Assembly: GCF_000195315.1 (NCBI RefSeq)
Contig: NC_015389.1
Location: forward strand, 1,798,001-1,862,000
DNA length: 64,000 nucleotides
Direction: 5' to 3'
DNA from: Coriobacterium glomerans PW2
GTDB lineage: Bacteria; Actinomycetota; Coriobacteriia; Coriobacteriales; Coriobacteriaceae
Of the stretch, positions 51,120 through 58,169 are shown piece after piece. Every line of letters starts with the position of its first letter. Position 1 is the first letter of the stretch. The position numbers and the translations under genes are program-made. Under the pieces are notes generated by a model. The model was not told the DNA's origin and searched no databases. It saw nothing but the letters and a program-made list of their open reading frames with translations.

Positions 51120-51299
51120 TCAACGAGATGAGCTGCACAGAAGCCAGATCACACCGATGGAGAGCAGCGCCATGACGGCAAGCCAGATCACCATCTCGGC
51201 GATGGTCATGCCGATGCGCACAACCGGATTGCGTCTCGCGCGCACGTCTCTCGGAGTATACGGGCTCGACTCGCAGACGTTTAGGTTTCTTGATGGCAT
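51120..51299 (-). CDS. 59-residue single-pass membrane peptide B
   Basis: Paralogue of peptide A (44952-45131): the same 59 residues, SPY at 12-14, an Arg-rich centre, GM at 30-31, Glu35, and a C-terminal helix (MVIWLAVMALLSIGVIWLL). ATG 51299 has AGGAGG eight bases upstream, as for A. It has no exporter genes behind it; the next minus-strand gene is the altered carbamoyltransferase 176 bases on. Candidate for co-regulation with the BceAB-like operon through the shared dyad. Confidence 0.8.
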   Translation of the reverse strand: MPSRNLNVCESSPYTPRDVRARRNPVVRIGMTIAEMVIWLAVMALLSIGVIWLLCSSSR

Positions 51300-51357: not shown

Positions 51358-51384
51358 CTTACATGGTTATTTCAGTTTTGTAAG
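51358..51384 (-). promoter_or_regulatory. CTTACA-N15-TGTAAG operator of peptide B
   Basis: On the minus strand CTTACAAAACTGAAA, six bases, TGTAAG, 59 bases upstream of the ATG. It is identical in layout to the site at 45190-45216. Confidence 0.75.
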
Positions 51385-51603
51385 ATTCGGCTCAGGCGAC
51401 CAGATGCGCGCACAGCAGTCGCACTCAACTTCGTCGCGTGCGGCGCCCAGAGGTGCCGTCAGTCACCGGGGCCATGTTTCTATCAGGTTGTCTGCAACCC
51501 TTGTCGCGGCTCGTCGAAGAGTCTTGCTTGCAGCTATCTGAGCCGCCTATACTTGGCAACTGTGCTCGAAGATGGAGTTGAGAGGCTAAGAGGAGACAAC
51601 CCG

Positions 51604-52500
51604 TTGAGAACGGTTCGGGTAGCGATAGGGATTATCTGCGAGTCAGCCGATACCGACCGCGTACTCGCAGTGAGGCGAAAGCGGTGCGGGTCGCACGACT
51701 TGTGGGAGTTTCCCGGTGGCAAGATCGAGCGCGGCGAAACCGCCGAGCAGGCATGTGTGAGGGAACTCGAGGAAGAGCTGCATGTGCACGTCGGCGACCT
51801 GCGCGACATATACACCGTTGAATACAGCTATCCCAAGTACCATCTCTCGATGAGGTGCTTTTTGTGCACGATCAAATCCGGGTGTCTCGCGATGACCGAG
51901 CAGATCGAGATTCGTTGGGTGGAGAGAGCGTCGCTTTCCGAGCTCTGCTGGCTTGCTGCGAACTCCGACCTTATCGAAGTGCTTCAAAGCTGCTCATTGA
52001 AATCACGCAAATCCGCGACGGGACAGGTTGAGCACTATGAAGATGGAGAGGTTCGCGGGAACCTTCAGGACGAGATGATCCGAAGACGCGCTGCCACGAG
52101 AAAGACCATGCAGGCCAACAAACGCTCCGACACCAAGCCGGAGCTTCTCGTACGAAAGCGCCTTCGAAAAGCCGGTCTCACTGGCTATCGACTTCAATGG
52201 CGAGATGCGCCCGGCAGACCCGATATCGCATTCCCTGGTCGTCGGATCGCGATCTTTGTCAATGGCTGCTTCTGGCACCGATGCCCGCACTGCAACCCCG
52301 GCGTGCCGAAGCACAACGTTGAGTTCTGGCAGGCGAAATTCCGCAGGAATATCGAGCGGGACGCCCGAGCGATCACCGAGCTGCGCGCACTGGGCTGGCA
52401 GGCAATCACGATCTGGGAGTGCGAGCTTGCAGATGCGCGCATCGAAGCGACGATGGCTCGCGTCATCGATACGATACGAAATGCGAGACGTTCAAGTTAG
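51604..52500 (+). CDS. Nudix (MutT-like) hydrolase fused to Vsr-type endonuclease
   Basis: A 298-residue two-domain protein. Residues about 1-130 are a MutT-like Nudix hydrolase with a full Nudix box at 38-60 (GGKIERGETAEQACVRELEE, then EL) preceded by LWEFPG, as in 8-oxo-dGTP hydrolases. Residues about 157-298 are a very-short-patch-repair endonuclease: TMQANKRSDTKPELLVRKRL, catalytic-type Asp in GRPDIAFPGRRIAIFVNGCF, then WHRCPHC, and WECEL at the end. The TTG at 51604 has AGGAG eight bases upstream and begins the Nudix strand; an earlier TTG at 51553 has no ribosome site. No cytosine methyltransferase gene, the usual Vsr partner, is visible in the window. Confidence 0.88.
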   Translation: MRTVRVAIGIICESADTDRVLAVRRKRCGSHDLWEFPGGKIERGETAEQACVRELEEELHVHVGDLRDIYTVEYSYPKYHLSMRCFLCTIKSGCLAMTEQIEIRWVERASLSELCWLAANSDLIEVLQSCSLKSRKSATGQVEHYEDGEVRGNLQDEMIRRRAATRKTMQANKRSDTKPELLVRKRLRKAGLTGYRLQWRDAPGRPDIAFPGRRIAIFVNGCFWHRCPHCNPGVPKHNVEFWQAKFRRNIERDARAITELRALGWQAITIWECELADARIEATMARVIDTIRNARRSS

Positions 52501-53192: not shown

Positions 53193-55385
53193 TCACATGA
53201 GCTTTGTCGACTCGATCTTCTCGATGACCCACGTGTTGGCTCTGATTATCGGCCGACGCAACAGCAAACCCAGTGCAAGCGATGGAAGCAAATAAATCGC
53301 GAGCTTGCTCATCTCGGCGAGATACTCGGCACCGTAGCTTCCCGCCATGGCGGCGTGCATCGCGTTGATAGCGTGGGTGAACGGCAGCCACGGATACACA
53401 GCTTGGAAGAAGTCGGCGGTCATCTGAATGGGAAACGTTCCGCCCGAGCCGGCTACCTGCATGACAAGCAGAACGACTGCAAGCGCCTTGCCGACATCGC
53501 CGAATGACACCGTGAGTGCGTAGATGATATTGCAGAAGACGAAACCGGCAAGCCAGCCGGTCGCGATAAATGCGAGAGGGCTGTCGCACTGAATGCCGAA
53601 GAACAAGATGTCTCCGGCGCACACGAGTGTGCTTTGGCATAAGGCCAACGTTGCGAACAGCAGAAAGCGTCCGAGATACAGCTCATGCAGGCGCACGGGC
53701 ATGAGACGCTTGACCAGATCCGTGTCGACGACGACCTTGAGCATGGCGGCGAGTACGATATTTCCCACCCACATCGAAAGGACGGTGTAGAACGGAGCCA
53801 TAGCCGAGCCGTAGTTGGCAATCGGGTAGACAGCATGCCGGCTGAGTCCGACCGGTGCCGCGAGCGCGCTGGCCAGTGCGGCGGGATCCTCGCCGATGAT
53901 TGAGCGAATCTTAACCAGATCATGCGAGTTGGTGGCACCTTCGAGCTCGCCCTTGAGTTTGGCGAGCCACTCCGCTGAAGAGTCCAAAGTATCCGTAACC
54001 CCACCGAGCACGCCCTGTGCGCCCGCAAGTTCGCTTGCGAGTGATTCCGAGGAAGAGGAGAGCTTCTTGACGGTCGCATCCAGATCGCGCGCCGTGTCCC
54101 GACTTCCGCTTACGGTATCTTCCACCGTTTTCTCGAGCTGTGCGGCGTTCTGCTTGAGCGTGGTCTCGTAATCGGCTTTGACTTGAGTGATGCCTGCTTT
54201 CGCTTCCGCAACAAGCGCCTGGATATCCTTGCGATTCTGTTCGATGGCAGATGCGCTGCCGCCGATGTCACTTGCCGCGGCATTGAGACGCGCCTCCAGA
54301 TCGCGCTGCTTTTTCGCAACTGCGTCTAGTCGTGAAATCACCCCATCGAGGGGAGCTTTCACCCGTGGGTCGAGATCGGGAAGATCCCGTTCGATCTTCT
54401 CGATATCGCCCTTGATTTTCTCGGTTCGAGCGGCCTGCTCGCCCACACGAGACGCAATAGACTTGAGCTGGCTCTGAGTGTCACCCGCCTGCGTGCCTGC
54501 AGCGGAAAACGCCTTGCCGACCGCGCTGGACACCGCGTCATAGCTCGCTGCTGTGTCACCGAGAGCGTGGTTGATGGTGTCCGCCGCACCCTCGATCGAG
54601 GCCTGAGTGTCTCCGAGTCCCTGCTTCGCATCCGCCAAGAGCTTGCGCATCTGCGCGGATGTGCCGCCGGTATCGCCCATGAGTCTGCCGGTCGACCCTA
54701 CGAGGCCCGAAGTGGAGCCCAGGAGTCCCGACAACGACTTCGTACCCGCGTGCGCATCGCGAAGCCCAGAGATGCTCGCGTCGAGTGTGGAGTTCAGATT
54801 GGAAACGTAGGCGCCGATCTGATCGCTGTTCATGAAATCGAGAAGGTTCGCCGAAGTCGATAGTCCGATGCTGCCGATCGTCTCGGTAAATGTCTCATCG
54901 ATCTGCTTGCGCACCGTGGTCGCACCCTTGTCTGTGACGCGCGGCGCGATCGCGTTCGCCTTCTGATTCTCGTAGTAGATGATATTCGAATGCTTCACCT
55001 GGGTGGAGAAAAGCGTCATCATGTCCGAGGAGAAGTCCTCTGGAATCACGACCGCGGCGTAGTACTCACCTGAGCGCACACCTTCGACAGCCTGATCCCT
55101 GTCCACGAACACCCAATCCAAATCTTTGTTTTCGCGAAGCGCCGAAGTCACCGAGTTGCCGATGTTCACCTTGATCGGGATGAGATCGCTGCGGTAACCG
55201 CGATCGGTATTGGCCACCGCGACCTTGAGATTGCCGGTGTTGCCATAGGGGTCCCAGCTGCCCGCGATGTTGAACCAAGCATAGAGCACCGGAACGATGA
55301 TGAGACCGACCACGACGATCAGCGCGATAACGCTGCGCCGGATGCGCGCGAGATCACAGCGGAACAGATGCAAGATGTTTCTCAC
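53193..55385 (-). CDS. YhgE/Pip family membrane protein 1
   Basis: A 730-residue protein. One N-terminal helix (VIALIVVVGLIIVPVLYAWF) followed by the hallmark NIAGSWDPYGNTGNLKVAVA, an extracytoplasmic region of about 470 residues dominated by coiled-coil-like Ala/Ser/Asp heptads (residues 180-480), then five or six C-terminal helices of the ABC-2 membrane type. Related proteins are Pip (phage infection protein) and YhgE, some linked to type VII secretion. The start is GTG, overlapping the previous gene's TGA (GTGA). No WXG100 or EssC gene is nearby. Confidence 0.92.
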   Translation of the reverse strand: MRNILHLFRCDLARIRRSVIALIVVVGLIIVPVLYAWFNIAGSWDPYGNTGNLKVAVANTDRGYRSDLIPIKVNIGNSVTSALRENKDLDWVFVDRDQAVEGVRSGEYYAAVVIPEDFSSDMMTLFSTQVKHSNIIYYENQKANAIAPRVTDKGATTVRKQIDETFTETIGSIGLSTSANLLDFMNSDQIGAYVSNLNSTLDASISGLRDAHAGTKSLSGLLGSTSGLVGSTGRLMGDTGGTSAQMRKLLADAKQGLGDTQASIEGAADTINHALGDTAASYDAVSSAVGKAFSAAGTQAGDTQSQLKSIASRVGEQAARTEKIKGDIEKIERDLPDLDPRVKAPLDGVISRLDAVAKKQRDLEARLNAAASDIGGSASAIEQNRKDIQALVAEAKAGITQVKADYETTLKQNAAQLEKTVEDTVSGSRDTARDLDATVKKLSSSSESLASELAGAQGVLGGVTDTLDSSAEWLAKLKGELEGATNSHDLVKIRSIIGEDPAALASALAAPVGLSRHAVYPIANYGSAMAPFYTVLSMWVGNIVLAAMLKVVVDTDLVKRLMPVRLHELYLGRFLLFATLALCQSTLVCAGDILFFGIQCDSPLAFIATGWLAGFVFCNIIYALTVSFGDVGKALAVVLLVMQVAGSGGTFPIQMTADFFQAVYPWLPFTHAINAMHAAMAGSYGAEYLAEMSKLAIYLLPSLALGLLLRRPIIRANTWVIEKIESTKLM

Positions 55386-58048
55386 AGCGTCTCGTCCTTC
55401 CCCTTATCGAAAGCACGCGAAGATGAGCCCGAGTTCTCTCTCGTGGCCTTGCCCGCTTGAATATCGTCGTCGGTTGCAGCAGATCGATCCCGGCCGCCCA
55501 AGATGCCAGCGGCTCGCGCAGCAAGCGGGGAGTCGTCCATATGTCCGCGAATCTGCGCACGCAGGCCCTCATCGGATAGCGCCGATATCCTCAGCTGCAG
55601 CCGCATGCTCTCATGCGCGTATTCCACAGCGATCATATACGCATCGGCAACGATAATGGAAACGACCCAGAGCACGAGCATCCCGATCTTGCCATCTATG
55701 CTTACATCAAGAACGGCGGTGAGCACGAACAGAACGGTCGGCAAACCGAACACGAGGAGAAAGCCCGCGCGGATGAGTCGAGGATAGCGACGCTCGAAAC
55801 GGTCTGCTCTGACTATGACGCGCTCTCGATATGCTGCGGTATCAAACATGACCCGCAGAGCTTGGCGCAGCGAGTAGTGCTCGCGAGAGCGGCTGTTCTT
55901 CTCGGAGATCATGACGCCGGTACGCGAAAGCTCGCGATCGAACAGAAGATTCATGTTCAGCAACCACGGGCGAAGCCCCACGCCCACGACAAGCGCTGCG
56001 ACGAGAAATGCAAAAAGCGAGGCGAGATCGCTGAGATAGTGCGAGCCGTAGAGGCCGCCGACGGTCTCGCGCAGCGCATTGATACCATAGGTAAACGGCA
56101 GCAACGGATGCAGCCACTGAAAGAAAGCCGGCATCATCTCTATAGGATAGGTTCCAGAGGAACCAGGAATCTGGACGATCACCAATATGACAGCGATCGC
56201 CTTGCCGATATGCTTGAAAGCGCTTGCGAGCGCGAAGATGATGTTGACGTAAACAAATGAGATCGCGACGCCTGCAACGAGGAACAGCGCCGGAGAGCTG
56301 CATTGCATCCCGAGCACCAGATCACCCGAGCATACAATGAGCGCCTGAACGACACCGAGGAGCACGAACAGCAGCCATCTGCCAAAATATCCCTGCGTTG
56401 GCGAGAACGCCGGAAGCCCCTCGCGATCGACTTCGAGCTTGAGGATCGCGATGAGCACGAAGCCTCCGACCCATAAAGCCAGATTCGTATAGAACGGCGC
56501 GACGCCCGAACCGTAGGTCGCAACCGGATACACCGTGTTCGTGACAAGCGAGACCGGTGAGGACATGAAGTCAGCAAGGTCCTCGGGCTTGGCGTCCAGC
56601 AGATCCGCGAGCCTGCCGACCACCTCAGAGCTTCGAAGCGCAGCGACATCGTCGCGTGTTCGTTTGAGCATGTTTTGAACGGAACCGATTGCGCTGTCAC
56701 CATGTGCGATCGTTTCCTTCGCCTGATCGAGAGTCCCCGAAAGCTCTCCTAGCATCCCGCGCGCCTGCTCTATAAGCGGGACCATGCCGCCGAGCGCTCC
56801 GGAAAGATCTCCTGAGACACTCGAGAACGAGTCCAGTCCGCGATCCAGCTGGGGTAGCACACTCGAGGAGAAACGGGACTGCACGTTCGCCACACCGGAG
56901 ACACCGTTTTGCACGGCAGTGTTCATCTCTGAGGATGCGGCAGCGATCGAGGTCGCAGAATTCTTGATGTCATCGCTTTGCGTCTTGAGACCATCCTTCA
57001 CCGTCTGAAGACGATCGTTCTCGTTCTGCAGAGCGCCTATGATGGCGCTCGTATCCACTGTCTTATCTGTGATCTGCTTGAGCACGTCGATAGCGCGCTG
57101 GTTGTCATCAATGAGCGCTTGGACGTCGGCGAGCATGCCGTCGACCTTGCCCTGTACGGAGATGATGGCCCCGCTCGCGGAGCCGATGCCGACGCTGGCC
57201 CGAGAGGAGGCGCGACCCAATTGCATGGATCCGCTTGAAAGGGCACCGGACAGCGATGTCGTGAACGCACGGGTCGAGGTGCGCGTGGTGGTCAGAAGAT
57301 CATTGCCCTGTGCGAGCGCAGCGGAAAGTCCGGGAGCACGGTCCGAGAGGCTCTTGAGTGATGTGTCGGCGGACGCGATGGCCCTCTTTGTCGCGTCGAT
57401 CGTGCCCGTCATTCCATCTAATGAAGCTCTCCCCTGATCAAGGGCATCGTTTGCCTCTCGAATGGTTCCGATGAGTCCGCTCTGCGCGGTGGCTCCCTTT
57501 TCGACGACGTCGGCTCCGGCTTCCTTGGCGCGTTCCATGATCGTCTTGCTCACCGTGGCGACAAACGTGTCATTGATTTGCTCTTCGATCGTCTCCGCTC
57601 CCGTGTCGGTGACCTTCGGCGCGATCGCGTTGTTCTTCTCGTTCACATAATATGTCAGCTTCGGCTGTGTGTACTCGTCGGTGAACATGCTCAGGAGATT
57701 TTTGCTGAAGTCCTTCGGTATGATGACGGCAGCATAGTACTCACCCGACTCAACACCCGCTTTGGCTTGAGCTGCGGACGTGAAGACCCATCCGAGCTGA
57801 TGGTTTTCCTTGAGCCGGCTGATCGTCTGCTCCCCCGCGTTCAGACCGCCGACGTAATCGCTACTGGCTTCGACATCTTCATTCGCCACTGCGACATGGA
57901 CGTTGGCCGTGTTGCCATACGGATCCCAGTTGGCCACGATGTTGTACCATGCGTATAGAGAAGGTATGACGCACACGCCGGCGATGAGCACCAGGGCCAC
58001 CGGATTGCGAAGGAGACGCATGAGATCGCGTCGAAAGATTTTGATCAC
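55382..58048 (-). CDS. YhgE/Pip family membrane protein 2
   Basis: A paralogue of the downstream gene, about 888 residues. It has N-terminal helix ALVLIAGVCVIPSLYAWYNI, then VANWDPYGNTANVHVAVANE, a coiled-coil extracytoplasmic region, and a membrane half. It differs by a C-terminal extension of about 170 residues with two more helices (LIRAGFLLVFGLPTVLFVLT; IGMLVLWVVSIIVADAYMIA) and a charged tail. The start is uncertain: GTG at 58048 matches the paralogue's N-terminus but has a poor ribosome site; ATG 58099 and GTG 58138 are in-frame alternatives. Cotranscribed with its paralogue. Confidence 0.88.
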   Translation of the reverse strand: MIKIFRRDLMRLLRNPVALVLIAGVCVIPSLYAWYNIVANWDPYGNTANVHVAVANEDVEASSDYVGGLNAGEQTISRLKENHQLGWVFTSAAQAKAGVESGEYYAAVIIPKDFSKNLLSMFTDEYTQPKLTYYVNEKNNAIAPKVTDTGAETIEEQINDTFVATVSKTIMERAKEAGADVVEKGATAQSGLIGTIREANDALDQGRASLDGMTGTIDATKRAIASADTSLKSLSDRAPGLSAALAQGNDLLTTTRTSTRAFTTSLSGALSSGSMQLGRASSRASVGIGSASGAIISVQGKVDGMLADVQALIDDNQRAIDVLKQITDKTVDTSAIIGALQNENDRLQTVKDGLKTQSDDIKNSATSIAAASSEMNTAVQNGVSGVANVQSRFSSSVLPQLDRGLDSFSSVSGDLSGALGGMVPLIEQARGMLGELSGTLDQAKETIAHGDSAIGSVQNMLKRTRDDVAALRSSEVVGRLADLLDAKPEDLADFMSSPVSLVTNTVYPVATYGSGVAPFYTNLALWVGGFVLIAILKLEVDREGLPAFSPTQGYFGRWLLFVLLGVVQALIVCSGDLVLGMQCSSPALFLVAGVAISFVYVNIIFALASAFKHIGKAIAVILVIVQIPGSSGTYPIEMMPAFFQWLHPLLPFTYGINALRETVGGLYGSHYLSDLASLFAFLVAALVVGVGLRPWLLNMNLLFDRELSRTGVMISEKNSRSREHYSLRQALRVMFDTAAYRERVIVRADRFERRYPRLIRAGFLLVFGLPTVLFVLTAVLDVSIDGKIGMLVLWVVSIIVADAYMIAVEYAHESMRLQLRISALSDEGLRAQIRGHMDDSPLAARAAGILGGRDRSAATDDDIQAGKATRENSGSSSRAFDKGKDETL

Positions 58049-58169
58049 ACAGGACACGACAAACCATCCGATCACACCGATCCGCTCATCGCAGTACATG
58101 CGCGATGAGCGGAACCCTCTGCCTTGATTCGGAAACACACTACTACAAACCCGCTGAGCGGGCCAGATG

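Follow-up and report, generated by a model that had tools for sequence, protein, structure and literature searches.

The window analysed here is a 64,000-nucleotide stretch of the Coriobacterium glomerans PW2 genome. Its sequence contains, between positions 51604 and 52500 of the forward strand, a single open frame of 298 codons plus a stop that encodes a Nudix domain followed by a Vsr domain. The features of the locus are listed below in window coordinates.

51120..51299, minus strand: small membrane protein of 59 aa, divergent from the fusion gene; a neighbour kept in part of the family and not part of the enzyme
51358..51384, no strand assigned: dyad CTTACA-N15-TGTAAG, located in the divergent intergenic region and retained by many relatives
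51590..51595, plus strand: ribosome-binding site GAGGAG, read from the sequence, 8 bases 5' of the TTG start at 51604
51604..52500, plus strand: Nudix-Vsr fusion gene, 298 aa, TTG start
51604..51993, plus strand: Nudix domain, residues 1-130, with the Nudix box from G39 to E58 (E45, R53, E54, E57, E58); metal-binding glutamates invariant
51994..52083, plus strand: linker, residues 131-160, of low model confidence and with a length that differs widely among species
52084..52497, plus strand: Vsr domain, residues 161-298, with M169, E180, D207, H225 and W242 and the zinc ligands C222, C227, C230 and C273

The site is syntenic in relatives, where the gene lies beside a BceB-like ABC transporter and HtpG and does not adjoin restriction genes. 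The dyad lies between the fusion and the divergent small membrane protein beside the BceB-like transporter; it resembles a regulator site and probably belongs to the divergent transcript. Downstream and convergent with the fusion lie two adjacent large membrane proteins of 730 and 918 aa (53193-58138, minus strand), whose N-termini we take to be YhgE/Pip-like.

The earlier note had placed two complete domains, Nudix and Vsr, in one frame, and this description stands with its coordinates exact. On the window protein, the Pfam NUDIX model scores 63.5 bits (cut-off 21.1), Pfam Vsr (PF03852) scores 70.7 bits (cut-off 27) and the NCBIfam vsr model TIGR00632 scores 117 bits (cut-off 97.85). In a sequence comparison with solved structures, E. 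coli Vsr chains (1cw0, 1vsr, 1odg) rank first and MutT-like enzymes next. Moreover, the fusion is one frame in all 58 sequences read (56 genomes and two named duplicates), which rules out chance and frameshift as its origin. The start of the relatives falls at the same residue, as ATG, GTG or TTG followed by Lys-Thr-Val, usually with a G/A-rich stretch upstream. Separate production of the two halves from the fused gene, which the earlier note had named as evidence against a true fusion, finds no conserved basis, in that an internal start for a separate Vsr is unconserved and an SD-like start near the Vsr border is present in just 7 of 55 fused genes.

The genome that holds the window (2.12 Mb, single contig) carries the fusion in one copy as its sole Vsr, alongside two other Nudix proteins detected with PF00293. 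A close-relative pattern search with the single protein returned no match in genome or viral contigs; whole-genome searches and an alignment query succeeded. An alignment-based scan of genome contigs located the fusion in two Collinsella aerofaciens genomes (L039 and L040), and because the proteins of these two are the same as those of the family members G025 and G046, the family sampled here (f1) is that of Collinsella. The domain-architecture search proposed in the earlier note gave a clear result: the single-frame fusion is present in 56 of the 61 family genomes, and a Vsr, fused or not, in 60 of them. Outside the family, the search took in 39 genomes of the order plus additional genomes from the phylum, 296 in total, and yielded only separate Nudix and Vsr matches. 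Within the family, separate genes do occur. In genus g6, four genomes carry Vsr as an unfused gene, and two of these (G005 and G019) have separate MutT genes; the genome G051 is without Vsr and retains a Nudix gene at the syntenic place between the ABC transporter and HtpG (L180, G051:C1:1362000-1378000). G051 is a natural loss of one head, and its retained Nudix gene indicates that the pairing is not indispensable.

In trees, all fused Nudix domains form one clade (98/83) and all fused Vsr domains form one clade (100/97), and since each half is a single clade, the fusion has a single origin. The simplest history would be one fusion near the base of the family, with the Vsr lost later in G051. 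No description of a Nudix-Vsr architecture was found in the literature searched, and sequence databases may already list it; the components belong to known families.

Among the 58 fusion sequences 93 alignment columns are invariant. These include G39, E45, R53, E54, E57 and E58 of the Nudix domain, where the final Gly of the Nudix box is variable and usually replaced, and M169, E180, D207, C222, W224, H225, C227, C230, W242 and C273 of the Vsr domain, where position 223 is Phe or Tyr. Alignment to 1cw0 makes E180, D207 and H225 of the fusion equivalent to E25, D51 and H69 of E. coli Vsr, and the E. coli counterparts of the invariant residues are presumably those with catalytic, DNA-intercalating and zinc-binding roles. 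The fusion thus shares with E. coli Vsr its fold, the catalytic E/D/H, the zinc ligands and the intercalating aromatics, but differs in having a Nudix domain, no methylase linkage and an Asn at one active-site position. The latter residue, N220, is invariant in all fusions and aligns with the active-site His64 of E. coli Vsr, which is not taken here as defining the family. Unfused relatives have His or Asn here, even inside one genus (His in G080, Asn in G097), and in viral Vsr homologues His predominates, with Asn, Asp or Arg in some; because Asn is also present in unfused Vsr relatives, its replacement of His64 in the fusions is probably tolerated. A dead active site, the other finding that would have counted against the fusion, was looked for in the 58 copies and in none of them was one seen, every testable catalytic and zinc-binding position being invariant. 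Mean identity across the family is 73% for the Nudix half and 82% for the Vsr half.

Separate structure models were built for the Nudix domain and for the full protein. The Nudix model (mean pLDDT 87.5) has 3gwy as its top fold match, followed by 3hhj, 3r03, MutT2 and MutT, and among its further matches are E. coli Orf135 and a MutT2 crystal structure containing 5m-dCTP. In the full-length model, the Vsr block has a pLDDT of about 90-98 from residue 181, and a Foldseek search with this part returned 1cw0, the Vsr-DNA complex, as top match (E 2.4e-9, TMt 0.70), as well as 1vsr. The Nudix half of the full-length model is of low confidence, with an alignment 3 rows deep. The linker between the two halves is predicted by the model to be disordered. 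Measured from the Nudix WMPAD to the Vsr TKPE landmarks, its length runs from about 37 to 140 aa in 57 of the 58 copies and is shorter in G059. This variation in length between fixed landmarks, together with the low model confidence, argues for independent heads that are tethered rather than locked together.

One question is whether the fused Vsr serves a cytosine methylase. The earlier note had reported that the methylase partner is absent nearby, which is correct for the 64-kb window and not for the genome, in which two C5-methylase genes lie elsewhere: one at 0.529 Mb and a nearer one at 1.788 Mb, which lies some 10 kb beyond the window and ~60 kb away from the fusion. A PF00145 gene is present in 39 of the 56 fusion genomes, leaving 17 with no C5 methylase. 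In a motif search, whose locus counts are lower bounds, none of 22 fusion loci (10-21 kb) contained the C5-methylase motif, against 40 of 80 viral loci that had it within 2.5 kb of the Vsr; such an adjacent methylase is usual for Vsr without being a defining feature. For the rest of the order, Vsr does accompany methylases, a methylase being present in 11 of 16 genomes with Vsr and 6 of 23 without (Fisher p = 0.011, for a small sample uncorrected for relatedness). The methylase-free fusion genomes and the motif-free loci show the fused Vsr to be decoupled from any given methylase, and at the level of the family the presence of the fusion is independent of C5 methylases.

We hypothesize, at a probability of roughly 55%, that the fusion is a housekeeping protein for mutation avoidance, passed on by vertical descent, in which a flexible tether connects two active heads that work independently. 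We infer its substrates, catalysis and biological role as follows. The N-terminal Nudix head would hydrolyse a mutagenic nucleoside triphosphate, either 8-oxo-dGTP or 5-methyl or oxidised dCTP, ahead of its incorporation into DNA. The C-terminal Vsr head would open DNA at T:G mismatches and nick 5' of the T, and repair synthesis would restore C:G. Such mismatches would arise mainly by deamination of 5-methylcytosine, itself derived from whichever transient methylase or other supply is at hand. The benefit of joining the heads would lie in one promoter and a fixed 1:1 dosage, not in substrate channelling.

What does the Nudix head act on? The earlier note had called it MutT-type and assigned it oxidised nucleotides, which suits the window's own copy, whose best sequence matches are MutT proteins, and is less secure for the typical family member, whose best PDB sequence match is 3GWY, the 5-methyl-(d)CTP pyrophosphohydrolase of Bacteroides fragilis. 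Position 120 is Asp in 57 of the 58 copies, as in NudG, MutT2 and 3GWY, and Asn in the window copy (D120N), the state of the E. coli MutT residue that we take to correspond, Asn119. The window Nudix half is the most divergent of the family (its mean identity is 52%, where the other copies average 73%) and departs from it in and around the likely substrate pocket at residues 24-32, 75-79 and 117-120, with QRGYG changed to RRKRC and WMPAD to WLAAN; its substrate may therefore differ from that of its relatives. With MutT, 3hhj and 3r03 the fusion shares the Nudix fold, the catalytic residues of the Nudix box and a family-level match to the MutT equivalog model TIGR00586 (best relative E 3.1e-32), to which the MutT-like N120 adds in the window copy. 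Against MutT, however, the window copy scores 84.6 bits on that model, below its curated cut-off of 97.9, the last Gly of the box is usually replaced and most relatives have Asp at the Asn119 position. The NudG-type pyrimidine dNTP hydrolase model PRK10546 reaches 48 bits, below its curated cut-off of 156. The W..AD base-recognition segment is common to the relatives of the window copy and to 3GWY, NudG/Orf135 and mycobacterial MutT2, which, unlike the fusion, are stand-alone proteins whose deep relationship to it is poorly supported in the tree. The typical Nudix half of the family is about as close to a 5-methyl-dCTP hydrolase as to MutT. Given these divergent sequence and profile matches, the weakly supported tree and the MutT-like Asn of the window copy, the substrate may be either 8-oxo-dGTP or 5-methyl-dCTP.

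An alternative hypothesis follows the second of these substrates and has both heads serve 5-methylcytosine hygiene, such that the Nudix head destroys 5-methyl-dCTP, which could for instance stem from salvaged methylated DNA, and the Vsr head mends the T:G pairs left by 5-methylcytosine deamination. Values of 4-7e6 per M per s were measured for the 3GWY enzyme on 5-Me-CTP, 5-Me-dCTP and 5-hydroxymethyl-dCTP, with a k_cat/K_m for 5-Me-dCTP of 4.8e6 per M per s (PMC5158307). This enzyme is both the best sequence match of the typical half and the structure closest in fold to the window's Nudix domain, and the matches to Orf135 and to MutT2 with its 5m-dCTP, as well as the near-universal D120, point the same way. 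Such a role would give the two heads a single theme, is in keeping with the independence of the fusion from methylases and would explain its retention in methylase-free genomes. However, the Nudix half groups with 3GWY in the tree at weak support (50/78), the same Asp occurs in 3hhj and 3r03, which are alphaproteobacterial proteins annotated as MutT, the window's own copy has Asn, and NCBIfam ranks MutT over the pyrimidine hydrolase model. We consider this reading possible and on balance unlikely.

The lineage also appears to be without conventional mismatch repair. No MutS1 over cut-off was found in the window's genome or in 100 relatives, with one partial sub-threshold match, and no MutL over cut-off in any genome scored, comprising this genome and its relatives in the order; the fusion's lineage also differs from that of E. 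coli Vsr in having no canonical MutL, the usual stimulator of Vsr. Matches to NucS_C are short and partial (38-68 residues), with five marginally over the 24-bit cut-off and none of the five in the window's genome, and would represent unrelated nuclease folds. Similarly, all analysed Coriobacteriia lack both NucS and MutS-MutL, and further pathways may await discovery (PMC5290159). With MutS and MutL missing over cut-off from the order, the T:G endonuclease is without known back-up. The fusion resembles NucS/EndoMS of other Actinobacteria in being a mismatch-cutting endonuclease in a phylum largely without MutS-MutL (PMC5290159), but it is an unrelated protein, Vsr enzymes are T:G-specific and there is no credible NucS in its lineage.

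Two observations on mismatch-repair-like proteins were made in these genomes. One is a GHKL ATPase, conserved and ~360 aa long (L303:316-1431, minus strand; G000:C1:1127508; L305:552-1640), which adjoins an RNase Y-like gene in the window's genome and accounts for weak sub-threshold MutL matches in 99 of 100 Coriobacteriales relatives without canonical MutL. Its PDB sequence matches are all N-terminal domains of MutL, MLH1 or PMS2 (E 1e-5 to 4e-3), and it is possibly an orphan MutL-like ATPase and hence a candidate partner of the Vsr head. In addition, a frame of >3,200 codons in G025, a genome without MutS, contains two segments similar to the N-terminal, mismatch-recognising domain of MutS (G025:C11:111346-113178; E 2.8e-16 and 1e-4).

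Could the fusion itself fill this gap? In one form of the idea, a dNTP-sanitising domain and a T:G endonuclease that acts independently of methylation would together constitute the lineage's own mutation-avoidance system in a class without known mismatch repair, which we regard as rather doubtful. In a stronger form, the Vsr head would stand in for mismatch repair by correcting T:G replication errors generally. The lack of MutS1 and MutL, the short and weak NucS_C matches, the published survey and the occurrence of Vsr in nearly every family genome agree with this proposal, and there is a precedent in V.NgoAXIII, a Vsr that cuts T:G in every sequence context (PMC6116569). However, Vsr always removes the T, such that half of replication T:G errors would become mutations if strands were not discriminated, and a simple pattern search of the fusion for a clamp-binding-like motif that could provide such discrimination returned none. 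Moreover, Vsr is blind to other mismatches and to indels, and both Vsr and MutS are missing from many genomes of the order. Since the T is always removed and strand information was not found, general mismatch repair is kept at a low probability.

Alternatively, the fusion could be a chance joining without functional coupling, in which the Nudix alone or the Vsr alone is strongly selected in a given species. The syntenic Nudix gene of G051, the unfused state in genus g6 and the greater variability of the Nudix half would all fit, yet both halves keep all their catalytic residues unchanged across the 58 copies and no second loss was seen among 61 genomes, which makes this account improbable. Finally, a defence or restriction-linked nuclease, as suggested by matches to the PADLOC models PDC-S07 (Nudix) and Vsr (Type II nicking endonuclease), was rejected as highly improbable on gene context, given the syntenic housekeeping site with no C5-methylase motif in the 22 fusion loci, the near-universal presence in the family and the finding of a Nudix-Vsr frame in 0 of 80 viral Vsr loci.

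The favored reading, that of a housekeeping mutation-avoidance protein, brings nucleotide-pool sanitation and mismatch nicking together in one protein that was fixed once and has been kept across a family of gut bacteria. Interest in the fusion is raised by its fixation in a lineage without known mismatch repair, whose class was surveyed earlier without the matter of its mismatch repair being settled (PMC5290159). Its Vsr is maintained without dependence on cytosine methylases, in contrast to the usual view of Vsr as serving a Dcm-like enzyme. With the fusion, the control of T:G mutations in Coriobacteria becomes accessible to experiment, as does the idea of a 5-methylcytosine theme common to both heads.
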